DNA of 64,000 bases from Alphaproteobacteria bacterium PA2 (lineage in GTDB: Bacteria; Pseudomonadota; Alphaproteobacteria; Caulobacterales; Caulobacteraceae), in the NCBI GenBank assembly GCA_002256425.1, contig NKIZ01000001.1, positions 3,197,001 to 3,261,000 of the forward strand. The letters are read 5' to 3'. How positions within the stretch are numbered: position 1 is the first letter of the stretch; each line of letters begins with the position of its first letter. The notes below the pieces were generated by a model that had not been told where the DNA came from, did not search any database, and saw nothing but the letters and a program-made list of their open reading frames with translations. Positions 6,490-51,817 of the stretch are shown here, piece after piece. A program made the position numbers and the translations under genes.

Positions 6490-7215
6490 CTAGTAGGGGA
6501 TTTGCTGGCCATCCCAGGCGAAGAAACCGCCGGAGTCCTTGACCTCGAGCCCTGCCAGCACATTCAGCAGGGCTTCAGCGGAGGCCTGGGGCGACATCCT
6601 TGCGCCTTCACCACCCGAAAAGGGGGCTGAAAGCGCCGTCTCCACTGTTCCTGGATGGAGCGCGACACACAGGGCCATGGGATGGCTGCGGGCCAGTTCG
6701 ATGGCCAGGGTGTGAATGATCTGGTTGAGGGCGGCCTTTGACGCCCGATATCCGTACCAGCCGCCCAGTCGATTGTCTGAAATGCTGCCGACCCGGGCGG
6801 AGAGAGCGGCGAAGACGCTGCGCTCCTGGCGCGGGAGAAGTGGCAGGATGTGCTTGGCGATCAGGGCAGGCCCAATCGTATTGACGGCGAAACTGTGCGC
6901 CAGGGCCACCGGATCCAGGGCCCGCCAGGATTTCTCGGGCGTGGTGACGGCATCCTGCAGGACCCCGTTCGTCACAATCGCCAGACGGAGGGTGTCTCCA
7001 CTGTCTTTCAGCTCGTCTGCAAGGCCTGAAAGCGAGGCTTCGTCGGCTGGATCGATCTGGCGGGTGGCCAGCTTGGCATCATGAAATTGCGGTGGACGCC
7101 GGGATATGGACCACACCCTGGAAATTCTGGGATTGGCGATCAGGCGCTCGGTCAAGGCCCGTCCGATGCCGCCTGCGCCGAATACGGCGGCGGCGTAGGT
7201 CGCCCGGACTGTCAT
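6490..7215 (-). CDS. SDR-family oxidoreductase (C-factor-like)
   Basis: A 241-aa short-chain dehydrogenase. The cofactor loop is GAGGIGRAL (14-22). The active site is YGYRASKAALNQ, with the Tyr-x3-Lys pair and an upstream Ser in the FAALSARVGSI strand. The Arg after beta-2 (SISRRPPQ) suggests NADP(H). It resembles the small SDRs annotated as cell-signalling C-factor/CsgA-like proteins, which in many proteobacteria lie in light-induced photolyase clusters. It is divergent from the MerR/B12 regulator, with 42 bp between the assigned starts, so it is the obvious regulatory target. Confidence 0.85.
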   Translation of the reverse strand: MTVRATYAAAVFGAGGIGRALTERLIANPRISRVWSISRRPPQFHDAKLATRQIDPADEASLSGLADELKDSGDTLRLAIVTNGVLQDAVTTPEKSWRALDPVALAHSFAVNTIGPALIAKHILPLLPRQERSVFAALSARVGSISDNRLGGWYGYRASKAALNQIIHTLAIELARSHPMALCVALHPGTVETALSAPFSGGEGARMSPQASAEALLNVLAGLEVKDSGGFFAWDGQQIPY

Positions 7216-7257
7216 AATCTGTAAGGTCCAGGTTCTTTACCGGGCCCATTATCTGCT

Positions 7258-8328
7258 ATGGTGGCTTGGAAAACTGTTGTCACGGAAGAGCCGGCTCTTG
7301 GGTATACGGGAGAATGTCATGGACAAATCCCGAACCCGGACTGGAAATGCCGTCTAATCTTGGGGTTTTTGGGCAGTTTGTCCAGGACAAAACAGATTGT
7401 GCCCGGTGGGGCTGACCCGGCCATCGTCGTCGCGGGTAGTCATGGGCAATTGTCGATCGCCTCGGTTGAGCGCGATACGGGCATACCAAAAGAGACCTTG
7501 AGGGTCTGGGAGCGGCGCTATGGCTTCCCGGCCCCTGTACGGGACGCCCAGGATGACAGGGTCTATTCAGCAGAAGATCTGGAAAAGCTCAGACTCATTC
7601 GTCGCCTGATCGCCGTTGGCCACCGCCCCGGCAAGATCCTGAATCTGGATCTGCAGGAACTGGTGGTCCTTTCCACTGACTCCGCCGGCACAGAGTCCGA
7701 GGAAGTACAGCATGCCCTGGGCCTTCTGGTGGATAATGATGTCGACAGGTTTGAGGCCTGGCTGGCGACAGCCCTGGGGCGTGACGGCCTGAAGAGCTTT
7801 GTCCTGACGACCGCTCCAGGTCTGACGGTCGCCGTTGGCGAGGCCTGGGCCAGGGGCAAGCTGCAAATCCATCATGAGCATGTTTTCAGCGAGATCATGA
7901 CGCGTCTCCTGCGGACAGCGATCGCTGCGACGCCGCGCAAGGCCCGCGCCCCAAGGGTCCTGCTGACGACCTTTCCCCTTGAGCCTCATACCATCGGTCT
8001 CTTGATGGCCGAGGCCATGTTCGCGATCAGCGGCTGCGCCTGCATTAGCCTCGGGCCACAGACTCCTGTGCCCGACATCGCCCTGGCTGCGGGGGCCCAC
8101 CGGGCAGACATAGTTGCGCTCTCGTTCTCAAAGACCCTTGCCGCCAATCGTGTGACACAGGGATTGATCGAACTTCGGGGCATGCTGCCGCAAACCGTTG
8201 CGATCTGGGCGGGAGGCGCCTCGGAAAGTCTTGGCCGGGTGAAATCCGCCGACATCCTGATCCTGAGGGACCTGGAAAAAATCCCTGAGGCCGTCAGCGC
8301 CTGGCGGGCGGCGCTTCAGTCCGCGTAG
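7258..8328 (+). CDS. MerR-type regulator with cobalamin-binding domain (CarH/LitR-like light sensor)
   Basis: A 356-aa protein as drawn. The MerR helix-turn-helix is at about residues 65-105 (LSIASVERDTGIPKETLRVWERRYGFP). A helical cap domain follows with Trp197-x9-Glu207-His208 (WARGKLQIHHEH), the signature of AdoCbl photoreceptors such as CarH. The Rossmann B12-binding domain has Glu242-x-His244-x2-Gly247 (EPHTIG), the lower-axial-ligand motif. By family knowledge the dark AdoCbl-bound tetramer represses and light breaks it. No ribosome-binding site precedes the ATG at 7258; GTG 7399, which would leave about 17 residues before the HTH, is a likely alternative start. The 3' end overlaps the convergent thiolase gene by 13 bp. 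Confidence 0.87.
   Translation: MVAWKTVVTEEPALGYTGECHGQIPNPDWKCRLILGFLGSLSRTKQIVPGGADPAIVVAGSHGQLSIASVERDTGIPKETLRVWERRYGFPAPVRDAQDDRVYSAEDLEKLRLIRRLIAVGHRPGKILNLDLQELVVLSTDSAGTESEEVQHALGLLVDNDVDRFEAWLATALGRDGLKSFVLTTAPGLTVAVGEAWARGKLQIHHEHVFSEIMTRLLRTAIAATPRKARAPRVLLTTFPLEPHTIGLLMAEAMFAISGCACISLGPQTPVPDIALAAGAHRADIVALSFSKTLAANRVTQGLIELRGMLPQTVAIWAGGASESLGRVKSADILILRDLEKIPEAVSAWRAALQSA
7319..7357 (+). CDS. Possible 12-codon leader ORF upstream of the B12 regulator
   Basis: An ATG preceded by a GGGAGA sequence 4-5 nt away encodes MDKSRTRTGNAV and then TAA. It lies in another frame from the regulator, inside the doubtful 5' part of that gene. If the regulator really starts at GTG 7399, this would be a short upstream ORF in its leader. 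It could equally be chance. Confidence 0.2.
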   Translation: MDKSRTRTGNAV

Positions 8329-10418: not shown

Positions 10419-10442
10419 TACACCTAATGAGGGTGTGTTTTT
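10419..10442 (+). terminator. Terminator-like hairpin in the non-coding stretch
   Basis: The stem ACACC/GGTGT is extended at both ends by T-G wobble pairs, has a 5-nt loop, and is followed by TTTTT. The orientation would end a plus-strand transcript, but no plus-strand gene lies directly upstream. It is either the end of an undetected RNA or fortuitous. Confidence 0.4.
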
Positions 10443-10603
10443 GTCCTGAACAAACTTCTGTTGCGATCTTTCCATCGAGACCATTCATCGCCCGTTCAGA
10501 TTCAACTGGAGTGACATTTCGCACACCCAGCTTTGAGACATCGTGGAATAGAGCAGTGCCGGATTTTGCCCTGTGAGCCGCAGACTTCTTCCAGTTCCTG
10601 TGT

Positions 10604-10777: not shown

Positions 10778-11182
10778 GTGACGTCGCCCTCGAACAAGAC
10801 GCCGGACCCGATGGACGTTGCGCTCGGCGCAGCCGTACGCATTCGTCGCCGAACCATCGGACTATCTCAGGAAGCTCTCGCCAATCAGTGCGGGGTCAGT
10901 TTTCAGCAGATCCAGAAATACGAAAACGGCGCCAACCGCATCTCGTTCTCACGCCTTGTACAGATCGCCAAGGCGCTGCGCTGTCGCGTGGTGGACCTTA
11001 TGGACGTCCTTGATGCGCCCGGGGCCGAAGCCCAGGGCGAGGTCGATGTTCTGAGCCGCATGCGCACCCCTGGCGCCCTGGAACTGCTCGCGGCCTTTGA
11101 ACAACTGCCGCAGGACTCGCGCTCGTCCCTGATCGGGTTCATGCGCAGCCTGACGCCCATGGACCACAACCCCGAGCCCTGA
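10778..11182 (+). CDS. XRE-family transcriptional regulator
   Basis: A 134-aa protein with a Cro/CI-type helix-turn-helix at about residues 15-70: GAAVRIRRRTIGLSQEALANQCGVSF, then QQIQKYENGANRISFSRL. The C-terminal tail (RMRTPGALELLAAFEQLP) resembles the short helical extension of alphaproteobacterial XRE regulators that keep a single HTH. The GTG at 10778 is preferred over the upstream ATG at 10631 because AAGGAG lies 11 nt before it and the extra 49 residues look non-coding. It stands alone between the non-coding stretch and the convergent tlpA gene; no toxin gene is adjacent. Confidence 0.85.
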   Translation: MTSPSNKTPDPMDVALGAAVRIRRRTIGLSQEALANQCGVSFQQIQKYENGANRISFSRLVQIAKALRCRVVDLMDVLDAPGAEAQGEVDVLSRMRTPGALELLAAFEQLPQDSRSSLIGFMRSLTPMDHNPEP

Positions 11183-51244: not shown

Positions 51245-51817
51245 GTGGTCACCCTGAACCGCATCTACACGCGCACGGGCGATGGCGGGACTACAGGCCT
51301 GGCCAACGGTCAGACGGTCAGCAAGACCGACCTGCGGGTTGCGGCCTATGGTGATGTGGATGAGACCAATTCCTGCATTGGCCTGGCCAGGCTCCACACC
51401 TCGGGAACCGTTCTGGACGAGGTCCTGGGCCGGCTCCAGAATGAACTCTTCGATCTTGGCGCAGACCTGGCGACGCCCGCCCGGGCTGATGAAGCTGAAG
51501 GCGTGGTCCTGCGCATTCTCGACAGTCAGGTGGCGCGACTTGAGGCCGAAATCGACCAGCTCAACTCTGACCTTCCGCCATTGACATCTTTTGTCCTGCC
51601 TGGCGGGACACCTGCCGCAGCAGGGCTGCATCTCGCCCGCACCATCGCCAGACGGGCTGAACGCGCCGTTGTAGCCCTGGCTGAGTCTGGGCAATCGGTC
51701 AGTCCCGCGGCCCAGCGATACATCAACCGGCTGTCGGACCTGTTGTTTGTGGCTGCCCGCACCGCCAATGCATCGGGCCAGGGCGACGTTTTCTGGAAGT
51801 CCGGCGCGACGCGCTGA
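51245..51817 (+). CDS. Cob(I)alamin adenosyltransferase, PduO type
   Basis: A 190-aa enzyme that makes adenosylcobalamin from cob(I)alamin and ATP. The N-terminal ATP motif is YTRTGDGGTTGL. The cobalamin region is AAYGDVDETNSCIGLAR, with LTSFVLPGGTPAAAGLHLARTIARRAERA and INRLSDLLFVAARTAN after it. The start is a GTG 3 bp after the HIG1-like gene. It could supply AdoCbl to the CarH-like regulator at 7.3 kb and to mutases. Confidence 0.92.
   Translation: MVTLNRIYTRTGDGGTTGLANGQTVSKTDLRVAAYGDVDETNSCIGLARLHTSGTVLDEVLGRLQNELFDLGADLATPARADEAEGVVLRILDSQVARLEAEIDQLNSDLPPLTSFVLPGGTPAAAGLHLARTIARRAERAVVALAESGQSVSPAAQRYINRLSDLLFVAARTANASGQGDVFWKSGATR

Follow-up and report, generated by a model that had tools for sequence, protein, structure and literature searches.

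In many CarH proteins, although not in all of them, a histidine of the type of Thermus His132 is the upper ligand of the light state. Published CarH operators are tandem 11-bp direct repeats of the form nnnnTnnACAn (PMC9304148, PMC8156234), and the published signature of light-responsive B12-binding domains consists of GxxW, EH, GxxH and GxxxP (PMC11796333). The H132A variant of Thermus CarH mostly remains tetrameric under light, although the same paper cites an earlier contrary report, and Thermus CarH attains its final light state only in the presence of oxygen (PMC10442372); CtMerR, which has an arginine at the His132 position, is nevertheless light-responsive (PMC11796333). Genes for SDR, photolyase, FAD-oxidoreductase, UfaM and fol functions are members of the LitR-linked regions of Pseudomonas (PMC9758184), and the singlet-oxygen regulon of Rhodobacter includes folE2 and an SDR gene (PMC7074977, PMC5507510).

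The window (the whole 64,000-nucleotide stretch of Alphaproteobacteria bacterium PA2 analysed here) contains a gene for a CarH/LitR-type MerR regulator with a cobalamin-binding domain (7399-8328, + strand, in a reading frame open from 7258), divergent from a gene for a 241-aa SDR oxidoreductase related to PRK09009 and C-factor (6490-7215, - strand). The regulator is the only CarH-like gene in this genome, which is a single 3.47-Mb contig. Its 356-aa open reading frame (7258-8328) has Pfam matches to MerR_1 (E = 2e-12), the four-helix cap B12-binding_2 and the Rossmann-type B12-binding domain (E = 4.6e-9), and the recognition-helix motif RxWERRY of the MerR domain, present as RVWERRYGFP, is conserved among homologues. 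The top NCBIfam model is CarH (NF052513, E = 2.5e-35), with 122 bits against an equivalog cut-off of 400 bits that is reached in none of 14 control genomes, Thermus composti among them. The best PDB matches are the Thermus CarH structures 5c8d and 3whp (E ~4e-26, residues 61-344), and Thermus CarH structures also come first in searches with an AlphaFold model, which, being built from two sequences and of low confidence (mean pLDDT 61.6), serves solely as support for the fold. The SDR matches adh_short in Pfam (E = 7.8e-11) and is closest to PRK09009 in NCBIfam (E = 2.4e-55, under the model's cut-off); its gene is single-copy in the genome. The first-pass annotation had read these two frames as a CarH-like regulator and a divergent SDR gene, and had placed a cobalamin adenosyltransferase gene at 51.2 kb; the profile, structure and model matches bear out the first reading, both frames lie where it put them, and the adenosyltransferase (51245-51817, + strand) is of the PduO type (Pfam Cob_adeno_trans, E = 7e-63; NCBIfam TIGR00636, above cut-off), a cob(I)alamin-modifying enzyme that might supply adenosylcobalamin (AdoCbl).

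The regulator probably does not start at the ATG of position 7258, because the operator boxes described below would then fall within the gene and because the homologues begin near residue 64. The N-termini of homologues (MSIA...) lie close to the helix-turn-helix (HTH) and align with TTG 7450, and GTG 7399 sits directly 3' of the perfect operator box; one of these two codons is the likely start.

All the residues that the first-pass annotation had quoted for the AdoCbl site, namely Trp197, Glu207, His208, Glu242, His244 and Gly247 (numbered on 356 residues), are exactly in place, and the motifs to which they belong, W-x9-EH and E-x-H-x2-G, are invariant in 23/23 family sequences and in all nine of the more distant homologues, so that chance is not a credible reason for their presence in 32 of 32 proteins. 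Within the longer cobalamin motif D/E-x-H-x2-G-x41-S-x-T/V-x22-27-GG, the E-x-H-x2-G and GG elements are present and the serine is kept, with S-x-S replacing S-x-T/V in the family. With its domains and the two invariant motifs, the regulator is probably an AdoCbl-binding protein of the CarH/LitR type. A very unlikely alternative is that it has kept the B12 fold while acting as a B12-independent repressor under the control of a partner protein, as CarA of Myxococcus acts without B12 despite a retained B12 motif (PMC8156234), and as Pseudomonas class II LitR depends on a LOV protein for its release (PMC9758184). The Trp of W-x9-EH is missing from CarA, however (PMC9304148), and the B12-binding domain of class II LitR is not intact, whereas all homologues analysed here have the two motifs in full.

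Other residues of the Thermus photoreceptor are replaced. The position of His132, directly after the conserved Trp, is Ala in the window regulator and A, S, V, I or Y in the family, with His in 0/32; the Arg176-Asp201 salt bridge of the Thermus head-to-tail dimer, for which class I LitR proteins may alternatively have Glu/Asp-Arg, corresponds to Pro and Gln; and of the light-responsive signature (PMC11796333), GxxW and EH are present and GxxH is absent, with Leu at position 174 (Gln in most relatives). Since the light-state histidine is replaced by alanine, the Thermus mechanism cannot simply be transferred to this protein. The loss of His132, of the Arg-Asp pair and of Gly174 would also suit a cobalamin-binding protein that reports cobalamin or the redox or oxygen state, not light, and induces oxidative-stress targets when its cofactor is absent or oxidised, as would the oxygen requirement of the final light state of Thermus CarH (PMC10442372) and the presence of oxidative-stress genes among the targets. 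Such a function is nonetheless unlikely, given that the Trp and EH capping the adenosyl group are invariant (32/32), that photolyase and folE2 as neighbours suggest light, and that light-responsive B12 proteins without His132 exist, CtMerR with its arginine being one (PMC11796333). A light sensor thus remains the preferred reading: the window regulator likely senses light, and would need a structural route other than that of Thermus CarH, perhaps linked to its different operator geometry. If so, nature would have provided an equivalent of the engineered H132A variant of Thermus CarH, one that would help to settle whether a light response requires bis-His ligation.

The predicted operator is a palindrome. 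A perfect box, TTTGTCCAGGACAAA (7377-7391), is the sole exact copy in the genome, and in relatives such a box stands beside the regulator; a second, weaker box, AATGTCATGGACAAA (7313-7327, three mismatches), lies 64 bp from it. The core of the second box, TGTCATGGACAA, is identical to that of the second box of most relatives, and the chance of a match of this kind in that stretch was 0.0065 by shuffling. The intergenic DNA of the window and that of its nearest relative, L001 (63% identity), have diverged except for 17 bp that coincide exactly with the box, and the second box of L001 is at the same 64-bp offset with four mismatches. A candidate SDR promoter (7356-7384, - strand) would have its -35 element TGGACA (7384-7379) within the operator, followed by a 17-nt spacer and a weak -10 element, AAGATT (7361-7356). 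It is weak by consensus and was passed over by a consensus scan because its -10 matches at 3/6 positions; CCAAGATTA is invariant between the window and L001 at the same spacing.

Across the genome, boxes with at most two mismatches are not in excess (four, versus six for a control pattern). A one-mismatch box in the window, TTTGTCCTGAACAAA (10440-10454), found in the genome search upstream of an XRE-type HTH gene, is a possible further site; L001 has a one-mismatch box at the syntenic position (10940-10954), and both copies lie about 360 bp before an XRE-type HTH gene, in diverged AT-rich intergenic DNA. Another one-mismatch box in the genome of the window (L053, contig C1: 2122990-2123004) is located just 5' of a gene for a PlsC-like acyltransferase, a possible second member of the regulon.

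Of the 390 genomes analysed from the same family, 22 carry an orthologue of the regulator. Exact copies of the palindrome TTTGTCCWGGACAAA occur in 13/390 genomes, all of them among those 22 and each copy beside the regulator, compared with 1/390 for a reversed-pattern control, and a box with at most two mismatches from TTTGTCCWGGACAAA is present at the regulator in 22/22. The chance figure of 8e-19 must be read with caution because the motif itself was taken from these regulator loci. Independent of that derivation are the absence of any exact copy away from the regulator and the paired boxes of two betaproteobacterial plasmids whose records lay outside it: two perfect boxes 62 bp apart beside a 47% identical homologue on a plasmid of Eleftheria terrae (L080), and two boxes with one mismatch each, 74 bp apart, beside a 44% identical homologue in Azoarcus KH32C. 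A second, weaker box is found at most loci, with start-to-start distances of 53-55 bp in the majority, 32-33 bp in one subclade and 64 bp in the window. These distances, like the 62 and 74 bp of the two plasmids, are near whole 10.5-bp turns (chance 0.0004 to 0.005 under different ways of counting the spacings); the exceptions are L046 and L048, with a single box, and L099, whose boxes are 122 bp apart, a distance that does not correspond to whole turns.

Further boxes were observed in other places. In L045, L047, L049, L080 and L083, an operator-like box lies about 370 bp into the regulator coding sequence, where it encodes FVQD followed by N, T or S, and uses a TTT codon against a preference for TTC in six genes; it may be a coding accident or, in view of the TTT codon, a third, downstream operator. 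In L078 (G285, C17) and L079 (G287, C2), two boxes spaced by exactly 53 bp stand next to what is left of a regulator/folE2 locus, and these are apparent decayed duplicates; the pair in L079 also adjoins a member of the small membrane protein family seen after the regulator elsewhere. On the Eleftheria terrae plasmid, both perfect boxes are situated between the homologous regulator and a gene for a fasciclin-domain protein; the fasciclin gene RSP_1409 of R. sphaeroides is a member of the singlet-oxygen regulon (PMC7074977, PMC5507510).

The common plan of the locus in the family has the regulator facing one way and a divergent set of folE2, a DCC thiol-disulfide oxidoreductase gene, DUF3429 and an SDR gene facing the other, with a photolyase, a SOUL heme protein or a small membrane protein encoded after the regulator; such neighbourhood counts are lower bounds, many loci ending at contig edges. 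The SDR divergent from the regulator in L030, L031, L036, L043 and L044 is of the same subfamily as that of the window (50-52% identity), and the SDR of L001 is 76% identical to it. In the window and L001, folE2 and photolyase are gone from the locus. More distant homologues of the regulator (43-49% identity, mostly from other proteobacterial classes) are found in FAD-oxidoreductase/DUF1365/CFA/MFS clusters, with a photolyase in one; this neighbourhood is the furan-fatty-acid (ufa/cfa) cluster. The Azoarcus cluster also has an SDR, which was dropped as a counterpart of the window SDR because it has no significant similarity to it and is of a different subfamily. On a plasmid of Rhodobacteraceae bacterium M382 (L087), a glutathione peroxidase-DUF393-TspO-SDR operon, with an SDR 47% identical to that of the window, has no box and represents the same gene set under other control.

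The SDR gene is probably controlled by the divergent regulator; the first-pass annotation suggested that it is under light control and falls outside the known targets. In this genome it is indeed the sole neighbour with a box: no FolE2 was found, the photolyase gene at 1.53 Mb, 1.67 Mb from the locus, is without a box (its sole match, with three mismatches and within the coding sequence, was taken as chance), and carotenoid crtB was not found. A carotenoid link was also rejected, the lone SQS_PSY protein of the genome (227 aa) having weak HpnD/HpnC matches far under cut-off and not representing a crt cluster. A target outside all known light regulons is, however, highly improbable, as relatives have the same SDR subfamily in a folE2-DCC-DUF3429 operon with photolyase or SOUL genes adjacent, and as the published LitR and RpoE-ChrR regions list SDR genes (PMC9758184, PMC5507510), to which the window SDR is likened by gene type. 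Because relatives keep the same regulator-SDR pair within a known kind of light/photo-oxidative-stress cluster, the target is not new; the layout of that cluster and the losses in the window and L001 argue that the SDR belongs to an ancestral light cluster, of which the window locus would be a reduced version. What is new here is the predicted palindromic operator and the variation in the cofactor site of the regulator.

We therefore favour, as probable, an explanation in which an AdoCbl-binding, light-released repressor acts on paired boxes and the SDR gene is a remnant of a reduced photo-oxidative-stress operon. In the dark, the AdoCbl-bound regulator would most likely bind both palindromes from one side of the helix between the two genes, so that the SDR promoter, and perhaps that of its own gene, is masked. 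Light would break the Co-C bond and the regulator would leave the DNA. The SDR gene may have survived from an ancestral folE2-DCC-DUF3429-SDR operon that had a photolyase gene close by and underwent reduction in this lineage. Counting against this explanation are the replacement of His132, of the Arg176-Asp201 pair and of Gly174, the S-x-S in the cobalamin motif, and the weak consensus match of the SDR promoter. Direct observation covers the domains, the residues of the cofactor site, the conservation of the operator and the synteny; from these we infer AdoCbl binding, the light response, repression as the sign of control and the promoter position. The locus would thereby tie a B12-type repressor to a photo-oxidative stress set (folE2, SDR, photolyase, furan fatty acids) that is run by RpoE-ChrR in Rhodobacter and by LitR and LOV proteins in Pseudomonas, and the predicted operator is precise enough for immediate testing.

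A scan of genome contigs returned one close relative only. In a set of 385 genomes that spans the class, one other match appeared, at 33% identity, and a sample of the phylum gave several at 43-48%; in a tree, most of the family sequences group together, with some forks unsettled. Horizontal transfer of the regulator into the family is plausible. More tentatively, and with somewhat less confidence than doubt, these proteins may constitute a proteobacterial clade of CarH-type photoreceptors without a bis-His light state and with another quaternary structure and mode of DNA binding, attaching as dimers to inverted repeats across whole helical turns (as a bridging or looping tetramer) and having folE2/SDR/photolyase or furan-fatty-acid genes as targets instead of carotenoid genes.

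In comparison with known systems, the window regulator resembles the class I LitR proteins, CarH of Thermus thermophilus and of Bacillus megaterium, in its MerR-type HTH, four-helix cap and Rossmann cobalamin domain, in W-x9-EH and E-x-H-x2-G, and in its best structural matches, but it differs in overall sequence (~30% identity), in having Ala, Pro and Gln in place of His132, Arg176 and Asp201, and in its probable target, an SDR gene and not carotenoid genes. The half-site TGGACA agrees with the TnnACA element in CarH operators, whereas the window appears to have an inverted repeat in two copies; the missing histidine and this DNA site make the regulator, by its sequence, an unusual CarH variant. 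CtMerR of Chloracidobacterium thermophilum (8jbs/8jbt) is a light-responsive MerR-family B12 protein that also lacks the bis-His histidine (PMC11796333), but it has Arg at the His132 position and is ~22% identical in a structure match to the low-confidence model. The class II LitR proteins of Pseudomonas (PplR and PmlR) reside in regions with a similar complement of photolyase, SDR, FAD-oxidoreductase, UfaM and fol genes (PMC9758184); unlike the window regulator, with its complete B12-binding domain, they do not have an intact one, and they are released by a LOV protein from an operator of the form TGTACA-N12-TGTACA (PMC9758184). The RpoE-ChrR regulon of Rhodobacter sphaeroides contains the same types of gene as the loci described here, namely folE2, photolyase, SDR (RSP_1087), CFA/UfaM and fasciclin (PMC7074977, PMC5507510), but places them under an ECF sigma factor and its anti-sigma factor and not under a B12 repressor.
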